The position numbers and the translations under genes are program-made. This document shows, in pieces, positions 9,108 through 44,764 of a stretch of DNA of 64,000 nt. The notes below the pieces were generated by a model. That model was given only the letters and a program-made list of their open reading frames with translations. It was not told the DNA's origin and made no database searches. This stretch comes from Prasinococcaceae sp. CCMP 1430 (Eukaryota > Prasinodermophyta > Palmophyllophyceae > Prasinococcales > Prasinococcaceae), in the NCBI GenBank assembly GCA_013416795.1, contig RQSC01000858.1, forward strand, positions 38,625 to 102,624, in the 5' to 3' direction. How positions within the stretch are numbered: the first letter of the stretch is position 1; every line of letters starts with the position of its first letter.

Positions 9108-10715
9108 TTACCGCCGCTGCGAGCCGTCGCCGCCGGCGCCGCCGGCGCCCTTTTCCGCCGCCTGGCGGCGCTTCTCCGCCGCCTGCCGCGAGAGCTCCGC
9201 CAGGCGCGCCGCGGCGGTATCGCCGGCGATGGGAGTGCCGCCTCGGCCCTCCATGGCGCGGCGTTGCACCTCAGCGATGCGGCGTCGGCGCTCCACACGC
9301 TCCGTGTCGGCGCCCTCGGCGCCCTCGGCGTCCTCCGCGGCGGCGGCGGCGTGCTGCTCCGAGGCGGCTTCGCGCTGGCGCGCCTCGTCCGCGGCGCGCT
9401 CGTCCTGGCGCATGCGACGCTCACCGGCGTAGTCCTGTAGCTTGTACAACATGCGCTCGAAGTTCTCATCCGCTGTTCCGATGCGGTGCCACGCCGCGCG
9501 CGCGAGCGGGCGGCCCCCCCGCCGGCTGCGGCGGCCACGCCGCTGCGGGAGCAGCGCATCCAGCTCCGGCCCATCTGGCACAGCCACCTCGTCCTGCAGC
9601 GCGTCCTCGCCCGCACCCCCAGCGGCGTTCGGTGTCTCGGCGTCAGCCGACGCGCCCTCGCCCGCCGCGGCAGTCGCCGTCGCCTTCGTCGCAGCGACGA
9701 TCCGCTCGCGGCGGTGTGCCTTGATCACTCTGCCCAGCTTCGGATCGGACTCGTCGTACTCGGACAGCTTCACTGACAGGCCCTCGAAGCGGTCCTCGGC
9801 AGCGGCGTCATAGAGCTCGTGTGCCTCAATGGCAGTGACGCCCTCGCCCGTCGGCTTGATCCGGTCTGCGGCCGTGATGCCGCGCCACAGCTGCCTCGCC
9901 ATCGCCTTGCGGTTCTGACGCGCGAACGCGCTGACCCTCTCTGAGTGCGCGTTGAAGTATCGCACCAGCCCTGGGTCGGCGTCCTTCCAAATGTCCGCGT
10001 GCGCCACGTCGTCGATGCCGTCGAGCGCGGTCTCGCGGCGCTCGCGATCCGCCACGGTGCCCGCGGACTCCTCGGGTGTGATTCTTCGCGACGCCCTGAT
10101 GCCACGCGGCAACCCCGTGTAGTCGCGCGGCGGAGTATACAACTCCTTCCTCCCAGAGACCGGGCTCGGTAGACGGCCATCCTCGACGGCCGCCTGCATC
10201 GCAAAGGTGAACAGCTCGCCGCGGCGCTTGCTCAGCGCGGGCACGCGCTCGCCCTCCACCAGGCGCTCCATGCGCCGCGACATACGTCGCACCGTCAGCG
10301 TGGGGGGCGCGCCCGGCTCGGGCTCCACCACACCGCGCGGGAAGCGGCGCGCAGCGCGGGCGAGCACGCCGAGCGCGGCCTTGCTGTCCGAGTCAATGCT
10401 GAGCGCGGCCCGCACGATCGCGCGGCGCTGCTCGACGTCAGCAGGGTCGAACGTGCGGCCCGTCGCCGCGATCGGGAAGCTCACGCCATCGCCCTTGGCT
10501 TGCTCGAGCGCCGCCTCGAACGTCTCCTCGCCGCGCGCACTGGTGCGCTCGGCCGCTGGCGCCCACCACGCTCCGCGCGGGGCGCTGCGCGCGGCCCCGT
10601 CGCGCGCNCCCACCCGCGCCCTAACGGATGGCGCTCGGCGCGCGCGTGCCCACACTTTGGGTTTTACGTCACTTTGCATGAGGACGAGCCGCTCGCTTCG
10701 GTGCATCAAATGCAC
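9108..10715 (-). CDS. Unrecognised charged, Ala/Arg/Glu-rich protein
   Basis: Single open frame of up to 535 codons; I recognise no family. The best candidate for a folded core is the middle part, with segments such as GRKELYTPPRDYTGLPRG, ALDGIDDVAHADIWKD and GLVRYFNAHSERVSAFA. The C-terminal ~150 residues are Ala/Glu/Arg-rich and probably helical or coiled (RMRQDERAADEARQ..., AARLAELSRQAAEKRRQ). The frame crosses a single undetermined base near 10608, and the first ~60 residues (Arg/Ala low complexity, low-GC DNA upstream) may not be coding. The next in-frame Met is only about residue 145, so the start is unresolved and an upstream exon is possible. Synonymous positions are GC-rich as in neighbouring genes, which supports real coding. 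Confidence 0.5.
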   Translation of the reverse strand: MHLMHRSERLVLMQSDVKPKVWARARRAPSVRARVXARDGAARSAPRGAWWAPAAERTSARGEETFEAALEQAKGDGVSFPIAATGRTFDPADVEQRRAIVRAALSIDSDSKAALGVLARAARRFPRGVVEPEPGAPPTLTVRRMSRRMERLVEGERVPALSKRRGELFTFAMQAAVEDGRLPSPVSGRKELYTPPRDYTGLPRGIRASRRITPEESAGTVADRERRETALDGIDDVAHADIWKDADPGLVRYFNAHSERVSAFARQNRKAMARQLWRGITAADRIKPTGEGVTAIEAHELYDAAAEDRFEGLSVKLSEYDESDPKLGRVIKAHRRERIVAATKATATAAAGEGASADAETPNAAGGAGEDALQDEVAVPDGPELDALLPQRRGRRSRRGGRPLARAAWHRIGTADENFERMLYKLQDYAGERRMRQDERAADEARQREAASEQHAAAAAEDAEGAEGADTERVERRRRIAEVQRRAMEGRGGTPIAGDTAAARLAELSRQAAEKRRQAAEKGAGGAGGDGSQRR

Positions 10716-12485: not shown

Positions 12486-14558
12486 ATGTCGGTGCTGCTC
12501 GAGACGACGCGCGGCGACGTGGTCGTGGACGTCGCGGCGGCGCGAGCGCCGCTGTGCGCGGCGAGCTTCTGCGCGCTGGCCGAGCTCGGGCGGTACGACG
12601 GCGCGCTCTTCCACGGCGTGCAGCGCGGATTTGTGGCGCGCTGCGGCGAACGCGACGCGGCCTCGGGCGAGGCGGCGCTCTTCGGCGGCGCCCGGCGCCA
12701 CTGCTCCGCCTACGGCGTGCTGCGCGGCGACCCCGACCGCTGCCGCTGCGTCGAGGACGAGGCCGGGCTCAGTCATGCGGCCAAGTACTCGGTGGCGTTC
12801 GACAAGGCCGAGGCGGGTGGCAACGCTGCCAACTTCTACATAACGCTGCGCGAGGGCCTCGACTACCTCGATGAGGGCGCGACGGTGTTTGGCGTCGTTG
12901 CCGAGGGCGGCGATATCGTGGACTCGCTGGGCGAGCTGCCTATCGACGCTGAAGGGCGGCCGCGCGTGAATGTGCGCGTGTTGCGCGCGCACGTGCTGGA
13001 GCGCGCACCGCTGGCGGAACAGCCCGATCGCGACGCGCTCGAGCGGCTGCTGCGCGAGCGCGGCAGCGAGCGCGAGCGTGCGCGTGCCGCCGCGACCGCG
13101 GCCGATGCGCGGGGGCGCGCCGACTTTGACGGGCGGCTAGAGGACGGGTTCGTGCCGAAGGCAGGCGGCGAGGGGCTTGATGCGGAGGCGCTGCGCAAGA
13201 AGGAGGCGCGCTCGCATGTTGAAGTGCTCGAGATGCTAGGCGATCTGCCCACTGCGGACGCTCGTCCGCCTGAGAACGCGCTCTTCGTGTGCAAGCTCAA
13301 TCCAGTGACGCGTGACGAGGACCTGGAGATCATATTCGGTCGCTTCGGTCCGGTGTCGAGCTGCGAGGTCGTGCGCGATGCGGCGACAGGCGACTCGCTG
13401 TGCTACGCCTTCGTGTGGTATCAGGAGCGGTCGGCCGCCGAGGTGCGCGCAAGCGCAGCCGAGCGCGTACTGCGCGCGCGCAAGGCGCAGAATGCAACCG
13501 CTCTCGCGCGCTGACACTCGAAGCGCCAATGCCTCCTCACGCGTCGACACCCGCAACCCCTCGTGCACCACGCGCGTCGCCAGGCGGCCTACCTGAAGAT
13601 GGACAACGCGTTGGTCGACGATCGCCGCATTCGTGTGGACTTTTCGCAGAGCGTCAAGCGGCTCTTCGGTAAGTATCGCTCTGGCGGCGCTCGTGCCGAC
13701 CGTGCGAGCGGGCTCGAGGCGGAGGAATTCGGAGGCGCCGGCGGTGGTCGCAGTGGTGGCGGCCGTGGACGTGGCAGAGGAGGGCGCTTTGGATCTGGTG
13801 GCAGAGGTGGAAGGGGGGCGTCTGGCGGGCGCTTTGGCTCGCACGGGCAGCGTGAGGGCGCCCCGCAGCTGCAACTGCGTGCGAGCGCGGCGCGCGGGCT
13901 CAGTGGGCCGCTACTGCTCCCGGCTCGCCCGCGGCCCGCGGATGCGGAGCAGCGGCAATCGCAGGCGCAGGTGCCACCGCAACCGGGGGAACAGCAGCAG
14001 CGGCAGCAGCAGCAGCAGGAGCAGGAACAGCACCAACGGCAAAGCAGGCGCGAAGAGGATCGCCCTGATCATGGACGTGGTGACAGAGAAAGGGATGACG
14101 AAACTCATAGGCGCCATCATCATCACGAGAAGCGCCACAAGCACCACAAGGAGCGACATCACTCCAGCCACCGCAGGCGCCACGACAGTGACGATGAGGA
14201 TGCTCGGGGTAGGGACGACGGGGAGCGGCGCGATACGCACCGAGAGCATGGTGAGCGCAGGCATCACTCCAGCAGGTCAGATCGCGAGCGGGGGCGTGAG
14301 AGCGAGCGCAGCAGGAGCAGGCACCACTCGCACAAGGCGGAGCGCAAACACTCCCATCGCGATCATCACGATCGTGACCGCGACCGCGATCGTGACCGCG
14401 ACCGCGATCGTGACCGCGACCGCGATCGTGACCGCGACCGCGATCGTGACCGCGACCGCGATCGTGACCGCGACCGCGACAGGCGCCGCGACCGCGACCG
14501 CGATCGTGATAAGAAGCACAGGCGAGAGCGCGAGAGAGATCACAGGGATCGGGAGTAA
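12486..14558 (+). CDS. PPIL4: PPIL4/CYP59-type nuclear cyclophilin with RRM and RD-rich tail, two exons
   Basis: Nuclear cyclophilin-RRM protein of the PPIL4 (plant CYP59) family, associated with transcription and pre-mRNA processing. Exons 12486-13442 and 13584-14558 give about 643 residues; the intron opens GTGCGC and interrupts the RRM (...SAAE/AAYLKMDNALVDDRRIRVDFSQ). Residues 1-~170 are a cyclophilin domain beginning SVLLETTRGDVVVDV with LFHGVQRGFVARCG; several isomerase-site residues differ from CypA, as is usual for this family. The RRM lies at ~270-355 (ALFVCKLNPVT = RNP2, LCYAFVWY = RNP1). A Gly/Arg-rich stretch, a Gln-rich stretch and then His/Arg/Asp-rich and (RD)n repeats resemble RS-like splicing tails. 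The plant zinc knuckle is not evident. The same-strand neighbour upstream is another cyclophilin, but the two are too different to be a recent duplication. Confidence 0.92.
14361..14485 (+). repeat. (RD)n-coding tandem repeat in the PPIL4 tail
   Basis: Near-perfect 18-bp repeats (CGTGACCGCGACCGCGAT) encode alternating Arg-Asp. Antisense Val/Ala frames over this stretch are shadows. Confidence 0.9.
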
Positions 14559-16083: not shown

Positions 16084-19000
16084 ATGGCGGAGCCCGTGGA
16101 GGTGGCGACGGTGGCCCCGAGCGAGGAGGTTGAGACCGATGCGTTCTTCTTTCGCCTGCGTGCCAAGCTGCGGCTGCCGGCCGGCTCGGGCGGCGCGGCG
16201 CGTAGCGCGCGGCTGCTCGCCGGAGCGCAGCGCGCGGGCGTCGCGGCGGCGGCGTGCGACAGCGGCGTGGCGCTCGTGAGGACTGACGCGCTGATCGCCG
16301 GTGGGCGGGATGGGTCCAACCTGAGAACGCTCCCTGGGGTCGCCTTCGTGGAAATGCGTGCCCTCCTGGCGGTGTCGCTCTCTGCCGATGGCTCGCTGCT
16401 CGCTTGTGCGACGCCGCGCTCGCTGTACATATACGGGAGCGCCGCTCTGCTCGCGGACGGCGCCGCGGCCACGGCCCCTCGTGAGATCTTCACGCTTGGG
16501 ATGGATGAGGGTGAGATCGTGCAGGCAGAGTTCTCGACCCACGCGCCGCATCGACTGCTGCTGGTCACGTCGACAGGCATGGCATATGTGCTCCAGATCG
16601 ATGCGAACGGTGCCTCCGGAGCAAAGCTCGCGCTCGAGGGTTCGGGCGATGCTGTCGCTGCAGCTTGGGCGCCTGCGGGCGACGTTGTGGCGATTGCCCG
16701 GAGCGATGACATCATATGCGTCGGCGCCGACGATGCCAAGGTCCGGTGGAGCGTGCGACTAGGAGAGGGGGCCATGGAGGAGAGCATGGCTGGATTGGAG
16801 GGGGCGCTCTTCGTTGAAGCTCTGCGGTGGCCAACGGACGCCACGCTGCTTTGCACGGTGGGCTCCGCGGACGAGGGCGATGAGACGTCGGCTCTGGTTG
16901 CACTCGATGTGCGCAGTGGAAGCGCCGAGGTGGCGGCGTGCGACGTTGAAATGGGACTGGGTATTTTTGAGGATGACCTAACGAGCGGGTCGCGCCAAAG
17001 AGCGCTGACGCATTGCGCTGCCGTCGAGCAGTGGGGCGTGGCCGTCGTGGCGGACAGGCGTGCCTCCGATGATCACCTCAACCTTGTGTCATGCGCATGG
17101 GATCGCAGCGCCGAGCAGCCCTCGCCGTGCTTGCTGCGGATCGCTGAGGACATCGCGCTCGCCCGCGTCGAAATGGTCGATGGCAACGACGACTTCGTCG
17201 TGGGCTTGTGCATGGACCTCACGCGTGCCTCGGACGCTGTCGACGATCCGCGTGATGACGAGGCGCCCGCCGTGCCCTGTGCGCCTCTTCTGCTGGCGCT
17301 CACATCAGCGGGTGTACTGTGGTGCTACGCTCTCGCCGCTGCGGACAGCGATGTGCCCGTGCCTGCTCGGGATGTCATCTCCGCGCCCGCCGCGATTCCC
17401 GAATTGGAGGCTTCCCAAGCGGAGGCTGCAGCGCCTGAGCAGCCGCCTGCCGAGGGGGGCTCCTCGAATGACACGGCCGAGGCAGAAGGGGAGAGCAGTC
17501 AGGGACTGGGTGCACTTGGCGCTGCGCTCGGCGCTGCGCTGCCTGATAGCGACGACGACGAGGAAAGTGGTGCGAGTGCAGAGGAGAGTGTCGGCGAAGT
17601 AGGCGCGGGATCGGTCGCACCTGCTGCGGTGCAGTCAGCGCTACCGGATGGCGAAACTGAAGACTCTACGCAGGCGGGTGGAGGGCGGGCTGGTACGTCC
17701 GATGATGACACGGATGAGAGCGAGGTCGAGTCACCGTTCAGGCAAGAGGGGGCAACAGAGGAGGAGCCATTCTCGTTCCGCCCATCGACGGCAGCCCAGC
17801 CTGGGGCAACTTTTTCGTTCAGTCAGCCTGCAACGCCTGCTCCGGGGAGTGCGACAAAGCCCATGACAGTGAACCCGCTTTTCAGCGCTACCGCATCGGG
17901 CGCGGGGATCTTCGGTGCTCCAACCACGCCGCCTGAGTCTGCTACCGCCACCCCGCTTTTCGGCGCCACGAAGCCTCCGCTGTTCGGCACCCCATCCTCC
18001 GGAAAGCCTGCATTCGGTGCTCTACCCGGTGGGAAAGAAAGCGACTCGGAGCCTCCCAAAGAAGCAAAGCCTCCAGTGGCAGCCTTCCCGCCCGCTGCTG
18101 CGGCCATGCCCGCCTTCGGTGCGGCGGCCGAAACCAAGGAATCGAAGCCTGCGGCGGCCGGTGCGTTCCCGGCCGCAGCTGCCGCTGTGCCTGTCTTCGG
18201 CGCCTCGGCTGTGCCTGCGGCAGCGGGCGCTTTCCCTCCTGCGGCTGCAGCCGTTCCCGCATTTGGGGCTGCACCTGCCAAGGACACAAAGTCTTCGGCG
18301 GCCGCAGCTTTTCCGCCTGCGGCTGCAGCCGTTCCCGCATTTGGGGCTACACCTACGAAGGAAGACAAGAAGACGTCGGCGGCGGCCGCGTTCCCGCCTG
18401 CGTCTGTTCCCGTGCCCGCTTTCGGCGCGCCAGCCAAGAAAGAGGACAAGAAGGCTCCGGCGGCGGGTGCTTTCCCACCCGCAACTGCTGCTGTCCCCGC
18501 CTTTGGGGCTGCGCCTACCAAGGACAAGAAGCCTGCGGCGGCCGCGGCATTTCCGCCTGCGGCTGCCGCCGTGCCCGCGTTTGGCGCCCCGGCCAAGAAG
18601 GAAGAGAAGAAGCCTGCGGCGGCCGCGGCATTCCCGCCTGCGGCTGCCGCCGTGCCCGCGTTTGGCGCTCCGGCCAAGAAGGAAGAGAAGAAGCCTGCGG
18701 CGGCCGCGGCATTCCCGCCTGCGGCTGCCGCCGTGCCCGCGTTTGGCGCTCCGGCCAAGAAGGAAGAGAAGAAGCCTGCGGCGGCCGCGGCATTCCCGCC
18801 TGCGGCTGCCGCCGTGCCCGCGTTTGGCGCTCCGGCCAAGAAGGAAGAGAAGAAGCCTGCGGCGGCCGCGGCATTCCCAGGCCGGTTCTTCCTTCTCTTC
18901 TTCGGACGCCGCCGGCGCCGTAAGGGCGGACGCCGACGTCGGCACGGGCGCAAACCGCGAGGCCGGTTCTTCCTTCTCTTCTTCGGACGCCGCCCCGCGG

Positions 19001-22000
19001 CATTCCCTCCCGCAACTGCTGCAGTACCCCCTTTTGGAACCCCGGCAAAATCTCCCACGGATTCTGAGGCTGCATCTGTCGAACCTTCTCCAGCAGCTGG
19101 CGACAAGAAGACGGCGACTCCTCCGCGGCCAGTCCCGACACCTTACACGCCACCAGCGCCGAAGTTTGGGCAAGTTGACAATGCGCAGTCGGTAGAGGCG
19201 GCATTCTCGACAGAAATTGATTCGGTGAAGTCTGCAGGCGAAGGTCTGGCTGAGGTTATCAAGGCGATTCAGATAGGTGCACCCACGGCACCCTTTCAGG
19301 GCGTGGTCGCATCGCACACACTCCCGGAGCGCACGGCTGCGCTGGCTGATCGCGTGGCGGCACTGCGCGAGCGGGCTGATGGCGTGCGTCCTCGCATGTG
19401 CGTGCTCAAGGACCGGCTCATCGACGTGAAGGTCGGCATTGCTGAAGCAGAAGCTTCGTCGGCAGTCACGCTTGCCAGCGACGGTGTTGTTGCTGAGCTC
19501 GCCGACGAGCGCCCCCTCCCGCCCCCCGCGGCGGCGAGGCGCGATCAGTTACGCCGGCATTATGAGATCATCGTGGGCAGACTTGCTGAGGTGATGGATG
19601 ACTTGGAGGCGCGTGAGCGCGCTGTTGAAAGTGCCGCGGCGGCTGGCGCTCCCAGAAAGTCGCCGGCGGCGTCGCGTGAGCCGCCGCCCAGCCAGCTCTA
19701 CGGCACGATTGAAACGCAGCGTGCTATCTCGCGGGCCCATGCGCGACGTTTCGATGCCATCGAAAAGCGCATGGTCGTGCTCGGCATGCTGAGCAGCAGC
19801 CACGCAGCAGCCAACGGGACATCGCCGGTGCGAGGCTCACCCATGCCGTTGATATCTGCTTCGCCCAGTGTTCTGCGTTCGGTAGGCAACCTATCGAGCG
19901 CCGGCGGAGGTGCCAGCTCGATCAGGCAGCGCCTGGCTGGCCGCCTCGCACAGGATCGCTCACCACGAGTGACCTCTGCGAAGAAGTCCACGCCGGACAG
20001 CCAGTTGAGGGCGAAGGGCAGCGTGCCGCTTGCTCTTGCGTTCGACGCCACTGATGCTAGCACAGCGTCGCCTGCGGCGTCCTCGATGAGCATCTCACAA
20101 GCTGTGCGGGAGGAATCATCGGCGTCGATGAGCGTGTCGTCAGCACCATCGCAAAAGACCGTTATGGGCACGTCGTCGGTCTCGGGCCTCGGCGCCTTCG
20201 GGAAGAAGCCCGCTGCAAGTAAACGCTCAGCACAGCCTGCTGATAGTGCTGCTTCGAGCGCCAAGTCTGTTAGCGGCAAGCCCAATGGAAAGACTTCGTC
20301 TGAAAAGCCTGCGTCAACATCTACAATCCCACCGGCGACAGCTGCCGTTCCCGCCTTCGGCGTCCCGGCCAAGAAGGACGGCAAGTCTGCGGCGGCCGCC
20401 GCGTTCCCGCCCGCTGCTGCTGCCGTGCCCGCTTTTGGGGCTGCACCAGCCAAGGAAACGAAGCCCGCGGCGTCGGCCACATACCCTCCCTCAACAGCCT
20501 CCGTTCCAGCATTTGGGGCGGCCCCTAAGAAGGCTGACAAGAGACCTGCTGCGGCGGCCGCGGCATTCCCGCCTGCGGCTGCCGCCGTGCCCGCGTTTGG
20601 CGCCCCGGCCAAGAAGGAAGAGAAGAAGCCTGCGGCGGCCGCGGCATTCCCGCCTGCGGCTGCCGCCGTGCCCGCGTTTGGCGCCCCGGCCAAGAAGGAA
20701 GAGAAGAAGCCTGCGGCGGCCGCGGCATTCCCGCCTGCGGCTGCCGCCGTGCCCGCGTTTGGCGCCCCGGCCAAGAAGGAAGAGAAGAAGCCTGCGGCGG
20801 CCGCGGCATTCCCGCCTGCGGCTGCCGCCGTGCCCGCGTTTGGCGCTCCGGCCAAGAAGGAAGAGAAGAAGCCTGCGGCGGCCGCGGCATTCCCGCCTGC
20901 GGCTGCAGCCGTGCCCGCGTTTGGCGCCCCGGCCAAGAAGGAAGAGAAGAAGCCTGCGGCATTCCCGCCTGCGGCTGCCGCCGTGCCCGCCTTCGGCGCC
21001 CCTGCGAAGGAGAAGTCAACGCCGGCGGGTGCGTTTCCGCCTACGACTGGTGCTGTGCCGGTCTTTGGCTCGTCGGCCAAGGAGGACAAGCCAGCAGCAG
21101 TGAGCGCGCTCCCGCCCACAACTGCTGCTGTACCTGCCTTCAGTGCCCCGGCTGCGAAGGAGGACAAGAGCCAAGCGGCGGTGGGTGCTTTCTCGCCCGC
21201 GGCTGCTGCTGCGCCTGCGTTTGGATCTGTGGCAAAATCTGCCGAGGCACCGCTGGCTGGGTTTGGCTCCACGGTAGCGCTTGGATCAGGGTCCACTGCT
21301 GCGCCAGCGCTTGCATTCGGCTCGTCGGGCGCAAAACCCGCGTCCGATGCGCCGACGACTCCGCCTGCTTTCGGGACCTCGACACCTGCGCCTGCGTTTG
21401 GAAAGCCTCCTTCGACGCCAGCGCCCAGCACTGCAGGGGCATCAGGCCCTGTTTTTGGGGGGGCAGCGTCCACTCCTGCCAGCGCAGCGGCATCGACGCC
21501 TGCGTTCGGTGCAGCAAGCTCAACCACGCCTGCCTTCAATCTCAGCCTTGGAAGCGGTTCCGCAACAACGCCCGCAGGAGCTACGCCTTCGCCGCAAAAC
21601 GTGTTTGGGAAGGGAATGACAACCTCCCTGGGTGCCGCATCTCCGTCGGCAGGCGGATTTGGCCAGGCGCCGAGCTTTGGCAGTTCAATGGGTGGGCCGG
21701 TGCAGTCCACCCCGTCGCCCTTTGGCGCCGCGGCTGCGGCAAAAACCAGCCAGCCATCATTTGGAACACCTTCGACGATGGGTGGAGCAGCAGGCAGCAC
21801 CGGTGCCGCGGCCTTCGGTGCGCCTGCCGCTATGGGCTCATCAGCGGCAGCGACCGGAGCAGCGACCATGACGGGGGTCCCCGCATTCGGTCAAAGCAGT
21901 GCATTTGGCGGCGGCGCTGCATCTCCCAGCCCTAGCGCTGCTGGTAGCTTCGGAACCTTCGGCAAGCCCGCTGGTGGTGGCTTCGCTGCATCCGCAGTTC

Positions 22001-22395
22001 AGTCACCTGCGGCTGGCTTCGGCACCCCGAGCGGGTTCGGCCAACCCACCAGTGGCGCATCGCCGGGCGCTGCTAGCCCGGGTTTTGGCGCGGCGGCGGG
22101 AAGCGGCAACGCCTTCGCCTCGGCTAAAGCGGGGGGCAACATCTTTGGCGGAGGAGCCAGCCCCGCCGGCAACGCGTTCGGCGCGGCGGCCGCAAGCAGC
22201 GGAACACCCTTCGGCGCAGCGGCCGCAGGCGGCGGCAATCCCTTTGGCGCAGCGGCAACGGGAGGCGGCAACGCCTTTGGCACAGCGACTGCTGGAGGTG
22301 GCGGCGTTTTCGGCGCACAACCTGGCGGCGCCTTCGGCGCGGGAGCCTCGCCCGGAGGCCCACCTGGCGGCGCCTTTTCGCAAATGCGAAAATAG
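16084..22395 (+). CDS. NUP214/Nup159-like FG-repeat nucleoporin, single exon
   Basis: Predicted cytoplasmic-side nuclear pore subunit involved in mRNA and protein export; 2103 residues without an intron. Residues ~20-435 look like a seven-bladed beta-propeller of the NUP214 type (short WD-like blades such as LLAVSLSADGSLLACA and VAAAWAPAGDVVAIARSDD). An acidic Ser/Glu linker follows (~440-570). FG block 1 (~580-1000) is rich in PAFGA repeats spaced by Lys/Glu linkers. Residues ~1035-1250 are predicted helical (TERTAALADRVAALRERAD..., RDQLRRHYEIIVGRLAEVMDDLEARERAVE), the expected coiled coil of the NUP214-NUP88-NUP62 complex. FG block 2 runs from ~1420 to the end and finishes in SFG/AFG/GFG repeats. 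The ordinary NUP214 order (propeller, coil, FG) is modified here by an extra FG block before the coil. Bases 18879-18994 in block 1 are aberrant (separate entry). Confidence 0.88.
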   Translation: MAEPVEVATVAPSEEVETDAFFFRLRAKLRLPAGSGGAARSARLLAGAQRAGVAAAACDSGVALVRTDALIAGGRDGSNLRTLPGVAFVEMRALLAVSLSADGSLLACATPRSLYIYGSAALLADGAAATAPREIFTLGMDEGEIVQAEFSTHAPHRLLLVTSTGMAYVLQIDANGASGAKLALEGSGDAVAAAWAPAGDVVAIARSDDIICVGADDAKVRWSVRLGEGAMEESMAGLEGALFVEALRWPTDATLLCTVGSADEGDETSALVALDVRSGSAEVAACDVEMGLGIFEDDLTSGSRQRALTHCAAVEQWGVAVVADRRASDDHLNLVSCAWDRSAEQPSPCLLRIAEDIALARVEMVDGNDDFVVGLCMDLTRASDAVDDPRDDEAPAVPCAPLLLALTSAGVLWCYALAAADSDVPVPARDVISAPAAIPELEASQAEAAAPEQPPAEGGSSNDTAEAEGESSQGLGALGAALGAALPDSDDDEESGASAEESVGEVGAGSVAPAAVQSALPDGETEDSTQAGGGRAGTSDDDTDESEVESPFRQEGATEEEPFSFRPSTAAQPGATFSFSQPATPAPGSATKPMTVNPLFSATASGAGIFGAPTTPPESATATPLFGATKPPLFGTPSSGKPAFGALPGGKESDSEPPKEAKPPVAAFPPAAAAMPAFGAAAETKESKPAAAGAFPAAAAAVPVFGASAVPAAAGAFPPAAAAVPAFGAAPAKDTKSSAAAAFPPAAAAVPAFGATPTKEDKKTSAAAAFPPASVPVPAFGAPAKKEDKKAPAAGAFPPATAAVPAFGAAPTKDKKPAAAAAFPPAAAAVPAFGAPAKKEEKKPAAAAAFPPAAAAVPAFGAPAKKEEKKPAAAAAFPPAAAAVPAFGAPAKKEEKKPAAAAAFPPAAAAVPAFGAPAKKEEKKPAAAAAFPGRFFLLFFGRRRRRKGGRRRRHGRKPRGRFFLLFFGRRPAAFPPATAAVPPFGTPAKSPTDSEAASVEPSPAAGDKKTATPPRPVPTPYTPPAPKFGQVDNAQSVEAAFSTEIDSVKSAGEGLAEVIKAIQIGAPTAPFQGVVASHTLPERTAALADRVAALRERADGVRPRMCVLKDRLIDVKVGIAEAEASSAVTLASDGVVAELADERPLPPPAAARRDQLRRHYEIIVGRLAEVMDDLEARERAVESAAAAGAPRKSPAASREPPPSQLYGTIETQRAISRAHARRFDAIEKRMVVLGMLSSSHAAANGTSPVRGSPMPLISASPSVLRSVGNLSSAGGGASSIRQRLAGRLAQDRSPRVTSAKKSTPDSQLRAKGSVPLALAFDATDASTASPAASSMSISQAVREESSASMSVSSAPSQKTVMGTSSVSGLGAFGKKPAASKRSAQPADSAASSAKSVSGKPNGKTSSEKPASTSTIPPATAAVPAFGVPAKKDGKSAAAAAFPPAAAAVPAFGAAPAKETKPAASATYPPSTASVPAFGAAPKKADKRPAAAAAAFPPAAAAVPAFGAPAKKEEKKPAAAAAFPPAAAAVPAFGAPAKKEEKKPAAAAAFPPAAAAVPAFGAPAKKEEKKPAAAAAFPPAAAAVPAFGAPAKKEEKKPAAAAAFPPAAAAVPAFGAPAKKEEKKPAAFPPAAAAVPAFGAPAKEKSTPAGAFPPTTGAVPVFGSSAKEDKPAAVSALPPTTAAVPAFSAPAAKEDKSQAAVGAFSPAAAAAPAFGSVAKSAEAPLAGFGSTVALGSGSTAAPALAFGSSGAKPASDAPTTPPAFGTSTPAPAFGKPPSTPAPSTAGASGPVFGGAASTPASAAASTPAFGAASSTTPAFNLSLGSGSATTPAGATPSPQNVFGKGMTTSLGAASPSAGGFGQAPSFGSSMGGPVQSTPSPFGAAAAAKTSQPSFGTPSTMGGAAGSTGAAAFGAPAAMGSSAAATGAATMTGVPAFGQSSAFGGGAASPSPSAAGSFGTFGKPAGGGFAASAVQSPAAGFGTPSGFGQPTSGASPGAASPGFGAAAGSGNAFASAKAGGNIFGGGASPAGNAFGAAAASSGTPFGAAAAGGGNPFGAAATGGGNAFGTATAGGGGVFGAQPGGAFGAGASPGGPPGGAFSQMRK
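18531..18878 (+). repeat. 81-bp FG-repeat array 1
   Basis: Four-plus tandem units of exactly 81 bp (27 codons), unit starts at 18531, 18612, 18693, 18774 and 18855, encoding KKPAAAAAFPPAAAAVPAFG then APAKKEE. Units differ by only one or two bases. The array ends abruptly at the aberrant segment. Confidence 0.93.
18879..18994 (+). other. Complemented-but-not-reversed segment in the FG array
   Basis: Replacing each base of 18879-18994 by its complement, keeping the order, gives the array sequence at 18669-18784 with one mismatch in 116 (18939 versus 18729). The sequence after it (CCGCGGCATTCCC) continues the array in perfect register; before it 33 bp (11 codons) of the expected unit are missing. 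As written it encodes an alien basic/hydrophobic stretch (GRFFLLFFGRR twice) inside an Ala/Pro/Lys repeat. Complementing it in place would restore an in-frame FG unit. An ordinary inversion would give the reverse complement, which this is not. Confidence 0.93.
20556..20962 (+). repeat. 81-bp FG-repeat array 2
   Basis: About five further tandem copies of the same 81-bp unit as array 1, 2 kb downstream in the same frame. They are nearly identical to array 1 although the intervening sequence is unique, so the arrays have been homogenised or recently duplicated. Confidence 0.92.
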
Positions 22396-42850: not shown

Positions 42851-44157
42851 TCACAGGAAGCTCCCAGTGAAAGGATCGGACGATGCGCTGGCGGTAGTGC
42901 TCTGCTGAGCATATGGCACCTGCTGTGGAGACTGCGACTGCTGCGGGGCCTGCGGGTATACAGGCGAGGTTGGACCGAATGGCCGCGGGTCCGGCGGTGA
43001 CCTCTGTGCTTGTCCCATCACCGCAAGTGGGTCGACACCCTTGCTGTCGGGGGCGAAGAGGTGCTTCTGTCCGGCCGTCATGCCAGGCTTCATTGCGCGC
43101 CGCCCCATCATCCCCGAGCTCTTTTCTGGGCTACGGCCACTCCCGTCAAAAGTTGTGCCGAGATCAAGGCGCACAAGACTGGCCGACGCGTCGTCGAGCC
43201 CGATGTGCTTTTTCAACATGTCTTTTGACGACTCACTAGCCTCCATCTCCGACAGGCCCGGGAAACTTGAAATTGATCCCTTCTGAATCACGGGTGTCTC
43301 TACCTGCAAACCGCCGAAAGGATCGTTCTCCATGAGCGCCTGCTGAGGTGCTGGGGGGGCTTGCAGGCCTCCAAGGTTGGCGACGCCCGTGCTGGCGCCA
43401 GCGGGTGCCGGTGCCCCCCCTCTTGCCTCGAGTGACGCGATGACCGGCACAGCGGAGCCGCCTGCGGGGGGAAATGGAGCGATTCCGGCTGCCGGCATCG
43501 CTGCTGCTGCAGCTGGAGCCGGGGGCGCCTGGTTGAATCCGAATGGGTCGGGCGACGGTGTCGATCCTGGTGCGGGCGGTGGGGCCAACACTCCGGCGAG
43601 CTCGGCCAGGGCCGGGTCAGACGCAGGCTTGCGCGGCGTGCGCGATTTAGGGGCGGCGAGGGGCTTGATCTCCACTTTAGGAAAGTTTCGCTTGCGCTGG
43701 GGAATTGCAGCGAAGGGGTCCATCTGTTGCGACTGATCCAGCGACGCGTCCTCCTCCGGCTCACCAAAGGGGTTGGTGCCCGTCCTCATTCCAGCGCCTC
43801 CAAGGGAGGAATCGTGCGCGGCCGAGCTCGGGTGCGAGCCAGCTGCGCTGCCGAAGTCGCCGCTGGATATGGCGGCGCCCGGGTCACTCGGACGCGATGC
43901 AGACGTCCCAAAGGTGTCGGCTCCGAAGCCAACAGCCGTGGTCGCCGGTCCGTTGGGCTCAAACGGTTGCTCCCCCCCGAAGCCGCCGCCACCGTATCCT
44001 TCGGTGGTGTTGAAGGCTGCAGCGCCGGCATTGAAAGAGTCGCCTGCTCCGAAGCCTTGGGTGGATGTGGTAGCATCGCCAGCTGAGGGGTTGAAGGCTG
44101 AGTCACCGAAAGCGTGCTCGTGCTGGTCGAATGCCGCTGCCGGCGCACCAAAGCCTA

Positions 44158-44204
<47 letters not shown>

Positions 44205-44764
44205 GCATCCCCAGTCGACGCGCTGCCCATTGAGGCAGCCGAGGTCTCGAAGTTGCGCGCGGTCGCCGCAACCTTGGCGCGTTCCGCGTGCAGTAGCTGC
44301 TCGTCGGTCACAAGATCGGCGACGCGTTGGGCTCTGGTGCGCACTACACGTCCCTCGTCCTTAAGGGTGATCGGATCCACGAAGGCAAAATTCGCTGCCA
44401 GGTCCTTGAACTTGAAGGAACGACGCTGCACGTCTGCGGCCAGCTGGAGGGGCGCGCGCAAAAGGCAGTACTCGAGCACGATGAGCGCCTTGTGGACCTT
44501 CCGAAAGTTTTCCGGCACGTCGTCGAGGCGCGTCCACAGCGTGTCCATTACCTGGGCGTATGCCTCCTGCACCTCTGGGGCGGCGTGCTGCAGGCCCTGA
44601 GGCCCATGCTGCGGCCCGATGCATTCGGAGATCGCCGCGCAGATCTCCGCCATCGCCGCGCCGTGCGGCCCCCATGGCTGCGAGCCCGTCGCTTCCTTGA
44701 CCTTGGTGACGAGTGCGGGCTCCTTGGTGGCGGTCCGCTTGAAGCTCTTGTACGCGCTCTTCAT
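42851..44764 (-). CDS. ENTH-domain epsin-like clathrin adaptor
   Basis: 637 residues in one exon. Residues 1-~145 form an ENTH domain: MKSAYKSFKRTATKEPALVT, ATGSQPWGPHGAAMAEICAA, WTRLDDVPENFRKVHKALIV, LEYCLLRAPLQLAADVQRRS and the DEGRVVRTRAQRVADLVTDE helix. ENTH domains bind phosphoinositides and bend membranes during clathrin-coated vesicle formation. The long disordered remainder has a polyGln run, Phe-Gly/Gly-Ala stretches and short adaptor-binding motifs: NPF (NPFGEPEED), and several DPF (MDPFAAIP, NDPFGG, SDPFTGSFL at the C-terminus) that would engage EH domains and AP-2 or GGA ears. No ubiquitin-interacting motif is evident. The start ATG is immediately followed by the conserved ENTH N-terminus, so it is secure. 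The plus-strand SNARE gene begins within ~120 bp, a shared promoter for two trafficking genes. Confidence 0.9.
44157..44203. repeat. CTG/CAG run coding polyglutamine in the ENTH gene
   Basis: About 15 uninterrupted CTG units on plus, read as CAG (Gln) on minus within the disordered region of the epsin-like protein. Confidence 0.95.

Follow-up and report, generated by a model that had tools for sequence, protein, structure and literature searches.

A 116-bp block that is the plain complement of its neighbouring repeat in a nucleoporin-like gene of Prasinococcaceae sp. CCMP 1430, and very probably an artefact of sequence construction

Computational work on repeats recognises a complementary, or “everted”, class, as for example in ImtRDB (PMC6614062). 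In these repeats the second arm is the complement of the first in the same direction. The same relation holds for a 116-bp block described here. The repeats of ImtRDB are taken from 10 bp upwards, come from mitochondrial genomes and are described as short (PMC6614062). The block is long, matches at 99%, lies near its source and follows the register of the array around it. It was found inside a repetitive, nuclear-pore-type gene in a window of 64,000 nucleotides (the whole stretch of DNA analysed) from contig RQSC01000858.1.

The second group of known cases consists of errors in draft assemblies. Gap-closing and repeat-collapse errors usually lose or duplicate units, or produce reverse-complement joins. 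The block resembles them in its setting: it lies in a tandem repeat, shows a register shift at one junction, and belongs to an assembly that contains runs of N as well as single Ns. It differs in that the polarity itself is wrong. Among titles and abstract openings in the open-licence literature retrievable by exact phrases, no description of plain-complement assembly errors was found. A related slip is known from programming, where “reverse” used in list context in a Perl reverse-complement routine leaves a sequence complemented and unreversed, as in the block; nothing ties this slip to the program used here.

The third comparison concerns the host gene. Like FG nucleoporins, it has FG-rich repeats in a long low-complexity region, with 56 FG dipeptides among 2103 residues, all between residues 610 and 2084. 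It differs from them in that no Pfam nucleoporin model matched, and in that the block encodes an Arg/Phe-rich segment unlike the surrounding FG repeat. In a Pfam search of the 2103-residue protein no family scored above the cutoff, and the one match below it was PQQ_2 (E 0.0078, residues 171-279). A search of PDB sequences with residues 1-449 gave 19 matches, all metalloelastase (best E 0.52), and yielded no name for the N-terminal domain. Because no Pfam family passed the cutoff, the name “nucleoporin-like” is drawn from FG composition, and the gene is putatively of this type. The features of the locus are as follows.

16084-22395, + strand: open reading frame of 2103 amino acids, FG-repeat nucleoporin-like, containing two 81-bp arrays and, in frame, the block (open reading frame listing)
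18526-18878, + strand: array 1, 81-bp unit, 4.4 copies, 99% matches, extending up to the block (TRF)
18831-18878, + strand: left overlap of 48 bp, exact plain complement of 18879-18926 (sequence comparison)
18879-18994, + strand: plain-complement, polarity-violating block of 116 bp (115/116 after plain complementation)
18995-19040, + strand: right flank, last partial unit of the array (sequence)
20549-21002, + strand: array 2, same 81-bp unit as array 1, 5.7 copies, without such a block (TRF)
20847-20927, + strand: unit of array 2 equal to the first 81 complemented bases of the block (81/81)

When 18879-18994 is complemented and left unreversed, it equals 18669-18784 at 115 of 116 positions, and it scores equally against 18750-18865. 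This is the relation claimed in the original prediction, and the lone mismatch falls where it had been placed, at block base 61 (18939 against 18729). No insertion or deletion interrupts the relation over the 116 bp, and the match to 18669-18784 breaks at the first base outside each end of the block. Further plain-complement partners start at 18588 and 20766 (114/116 each) and at 20847, 20685 and 20604 (113/116 each). Every base of the block is ordinary array sequence with its polarity wrong.

An ordinary inversion might resemble a plain complement if the repeat unit were nearly palindromic or mirror-symmetric, and the unit does have a high GC content and some simple sequence. Over all offsets in the window, however, the best reverse complement reaches only 66/116, which rules this explanation out as virtually impossible. 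Reversed sequence reaches at most 63/116 and direct sequence at most 60/116, the block itself excluded. The claim of a plain complement would have been refuted by a poor alignment of the complement or by a reverse-complement source of equal quality, and neither was found in the window. Chance likeness of unrelated sequence can be dismissed outright: when the letters of the complemented block were shuffled in 200 trials, the mean match was 54.7 and the maximum 62, as against 115.

The mismatch is informative about the origin of the block. Bases 1-81 of the complemented block are identical to the array 2 unit at 20847-20927, the variant at the mismatch included, and the suggestion that the mismatch is a natural variant of array 2 is thereby borne out. 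Upstream of array 1, where the units have diverged further, the variant word CTGCAGCC recurs at 18245 and 18323. None of the three complete array 1 units that were compared is this unit. An unknown source of the mismatch is ruled out, since unit 20847-20927 carries the variant; a linked pair of variants in the block is found in this unit. Because the mismatch is part of a whole array 2 unit, the block is not simply the adjoining unit mis-written. From the comparison of units, it looks like a genuine piece of sequence in an impossible orientation, with a haplotype of its own.

The two junctions of the block behave differently. At the right, the complemented block runs into the flank 18995-19040 in perfect register, so that the array resumes downstream as predicted. 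At the left, the register is shifted by 48 or -33 bp. Bases 18831-18878 are the exact plain complement of bases 18879-18926, and the junction can be read equally as 33 bp missing or as an overlap of 48 bp present twice. Since the array is periodic, the choice between them shifts the count by a single 81-bp unit. The original prediction had spoken of 33 missing bp, which stands as one possible reading and not as the unique one. When the junction is read as an overlap, 414 bases can be aligned between the two arrays free of gaps, 408 of them identical; the alignment is made up of array 1 (343/346) and complemented block bases 49-116 (65/68), both against array 2. Such a gap-free alignment would mean that the two arrays have equal numbers of units up to that point and carry the variant unit at matching positions, and it lends slight support to an overlap left untrimmed. 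The exact 48-bp plain complement in tandem at this junction was dropped as independent evidence, since any starting phase in an 81-bp periodic array yields some overlap.

The junctions also bear on the idea that the letters were changed after assembly, by file handling, manual editing, masking or a planted test. The exact ends of the block, the clean transformation and the single event seen so far are what such a change would leave behind. An edit made letter for letter would leave the register intact at either junction, yet the left one is off by 33 or 48 bp, and the block has its own unit haplotype. Together, the left shift and the haplotype point to a separately built piece and not to an edit of a finished stretch. 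The block is also present in the assembly itself (G000 C133:57503-57618), and so was not introduced into the window only. A change after assembly is very unlikely.

As had been noted beforehand, the block stays in frame with residues of the GRFFLLFFGRR type. Residues 933-970, encoded by its 38 whole codons, are rich in Arg and Phe; codons 932 and 971 each take a single base from it. The longest run of R, F, L, G, K, H and P residues in the protein, 41 residues, lies at the block; the next longest is 7. The open frame was rejected as a sign of function. The source frame contains no ATT, ATC or ACT codons, which are the plain-complement precursors of stops, and for this reason the block cannot contain a stop codon in that frame; retention of the frame by chance is 1 in 3.

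Homologous proteins were searched for the same segment. The homologue P0001 (1257 amino acids, E 8.1e-234), which covers 39% of the query at 43% identity, can be aligned to the left and right of array 1. In between it carries no Arg/Phe-rich segment, although its repeat region is short and loosely aligned. It ends before array 2. A protein search with residues 915-1010 gave 644 candidates, none at E<=0.001, and no protein of the same species covering the block appeared in the protein searches. The published protein of Prasinoderma coloniale, the likely species, for the nucleoporin-like gene is absent from both nucleoporin protein searches, possibly through limits on search length or a split gene model. 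A repeat word had 0 matches in viral contigs.

Other instances were sought in the same assembly, which comprises 145 contigs and 24.5 Mb. A query with the block returned one match, the block itself, and a query with the array unit returned at least 18, all within the nucleoporin-like gene and all on the + strand (match counts of this kind of search being lower bounds). A scan for local matches, at most 3 kb apart, used 14-base seeds and excluded words of very low complexity. It covered the window and 22 further stretches of the assembly, in all 194,516 non-N bases (63,587 of them in the window), or less than 1% of the assembly; four stretches were all N. There were 27 plain-complement local matches. 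Among the best 25, the block takes part in 19 and the remaining 6 measure 14-16 bp, so that the sampled bases showed none longer than 16 bp outside the block. The longest other local matches in the sample are 20 bp (reverse-complement) and 17 bp (reversed). In the window alone, 18-base seeds at any distance gave 32 plain-complement runs, and the best 12 of the 32 all involve the block. Apart from array 1, the sample contains a single comparable array, array 2.

Runs of N were considered as possible sites of the same error. The 23 sequences examined hold 25 such runs, 9 of them single Ns, and some may not be true gaps. The window has one run of 411 N and no N gap at the block. Eleven runs have 300 clean bases on each side, and across these no plain-complement fill was found beside the N; the longest words, at three of the runs, are simple, GC-rich and 14, 16 and 17 bases long, 39-257 bases from the N. 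Those of 16 and 17 bases occur across two of the 11 runs (L010:3568 and L022:8034). Among random sites, 0.3% of 600 and 0.4% of 500 reach 16, and the excess at N runs is small and noted after the fact. The two words contain four different dinucleotides only and stand 39-255 bases away from the N; for L022 the reverse complement scores equally (17). They were not counted as a second case. Being simple and not beside the N, they are probably due to composition.

Single Ns are a mark that some scaffolders leave at unresolved contig joins. In the window they occur at 10608 and 34567, where the flanks, compared in all four orientations, have no exact word longer than 10 bases in common. Among 14 contigs of which the first 10 kb were viewed, 9 open with long runs of N, 1.7 kb in the shortest case and 10 kb or more in the longest, which may not be true gaps (L002 with L003, L006, L009, L011, L013, L015, L016, L018 and L019).

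Could the block be real chromosomal DNA, copied or joined with parallel polarity? It is in frame and free of stops, with normal array sequence on either side. The open frame is trivial given the codons of the source, however, the block has a single match in the assembly, and the sampled bases hold nothing similar above 16 bp. The known polymerases, template switches, inversions, recombination and repair reactions and end joinings all keep to antiparallel polarity. If the block were real, this antiparallel rule would be broken. Such an origin is extremely unlikely.

The block is very probably an artefact of sequence construction, that is, of assembly or gap closing, and not a real feature of the genome. 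An error of this kind had been proposed as the simplest explanation. It is supported by the lack of a good reverse-complement source, by the + strand orientation of all array-unit matches, by the absence of a similar event above 16 bp in the sample, and by a programming slip that gives the same transformation. Long near-exact direct repeats are typical sites of assembly failure. The longest in the window is 346 bp and ends at 18878, at the site of the block; with arrays of 4.4 and 5.7 copies, a repeat of such length and similarity is hard to assemble.

The process could have started when the two near-identical 81-bp arrays were not resolved and a program put a bridging piece some 116 bases long into the resulting hole. 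Most simply, this piece would have been extended on the minus strand from the right edge towards the left, until it ran 48 bases into the left edge. The leftward extension is a detail that could equally well be right or wrong. Returning such a piece to the plus strand requires both reversal and complementation, and the program would have performed one of the two. A leftward minus-strand piece that is reversed without being complemented fits the block, with the register kept at the right and an overlap at the left edge. An orientation that cannot occur in DNA would have hidden this overlap from recognition and trimming, and the piece would have been inserted whole. When the Perl statement “return reverse $s” was run in list context, its output was the plain complement. 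The real DNA at this site is most probably a normal array, encoding a protein without the Arg/Phe-rich segment.

Some points stand against an artefact. A single instance was seen in a sample of less than 1% of the assembly, and a systematic bug is only a candidate cause. The block has no N gap beside it, the flanks of the N runs show no fills of its type, and the frame is kept, at the 1 in 3 chance given above. The published P. coloniale assembly was made from PacBio data with NextDenovo, Arrow and NextPolish and has 22 chromosomes, and its methods section names no gap filling (PMC7455551). The 145-contig assembly analysed here may be another version than the published one.

As an artefact, the 38-residue Arg/Phe-rich segment is of practical concern, since in an open frame it could pass for biology. 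Long local matches of plain-complement or reversed type are not expected in real DNA outside simple sequence. Scanning assemblies for them is suggested as a cheap check of quality.

Several other features of the window were recorded. The two arrays share 343 of 346 bases (18533-18878 against 20549-20894), a likeness which suggests recent duplication or gene conversion between them. A perfect 18-bp tandem repeat (14369-14479, 6.2 copies, 100% match) lies downstream of frames that, judged by eye, are cyclophilin-like and RNA-recognition-like. The GC content of the window is 68.5%; the published P. coloniale genome has 25.3 Mb and a GC content of 69.8% (PMC7455551).

An epsin-like protein is encoded at 42854-44764 on the minus strand. 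Its EukProt match is PRCOL_00002820-RA (BLASTP, 93% over the whole query), in which the prefix PRCOL probably stands for Prasinoderma coloniale. In a multiple alignment the two agree at 100% (rounded) outside one internal gap in the EukProt sequence, with one differing residue at the edge of the gap. The open frame holds an internal segment, poly-Gln tract included, which is missing from the EukProt model, and the discrepancy is probably a difference between gene models. An ENA protein matches the epsin-like protein at 97-98%.
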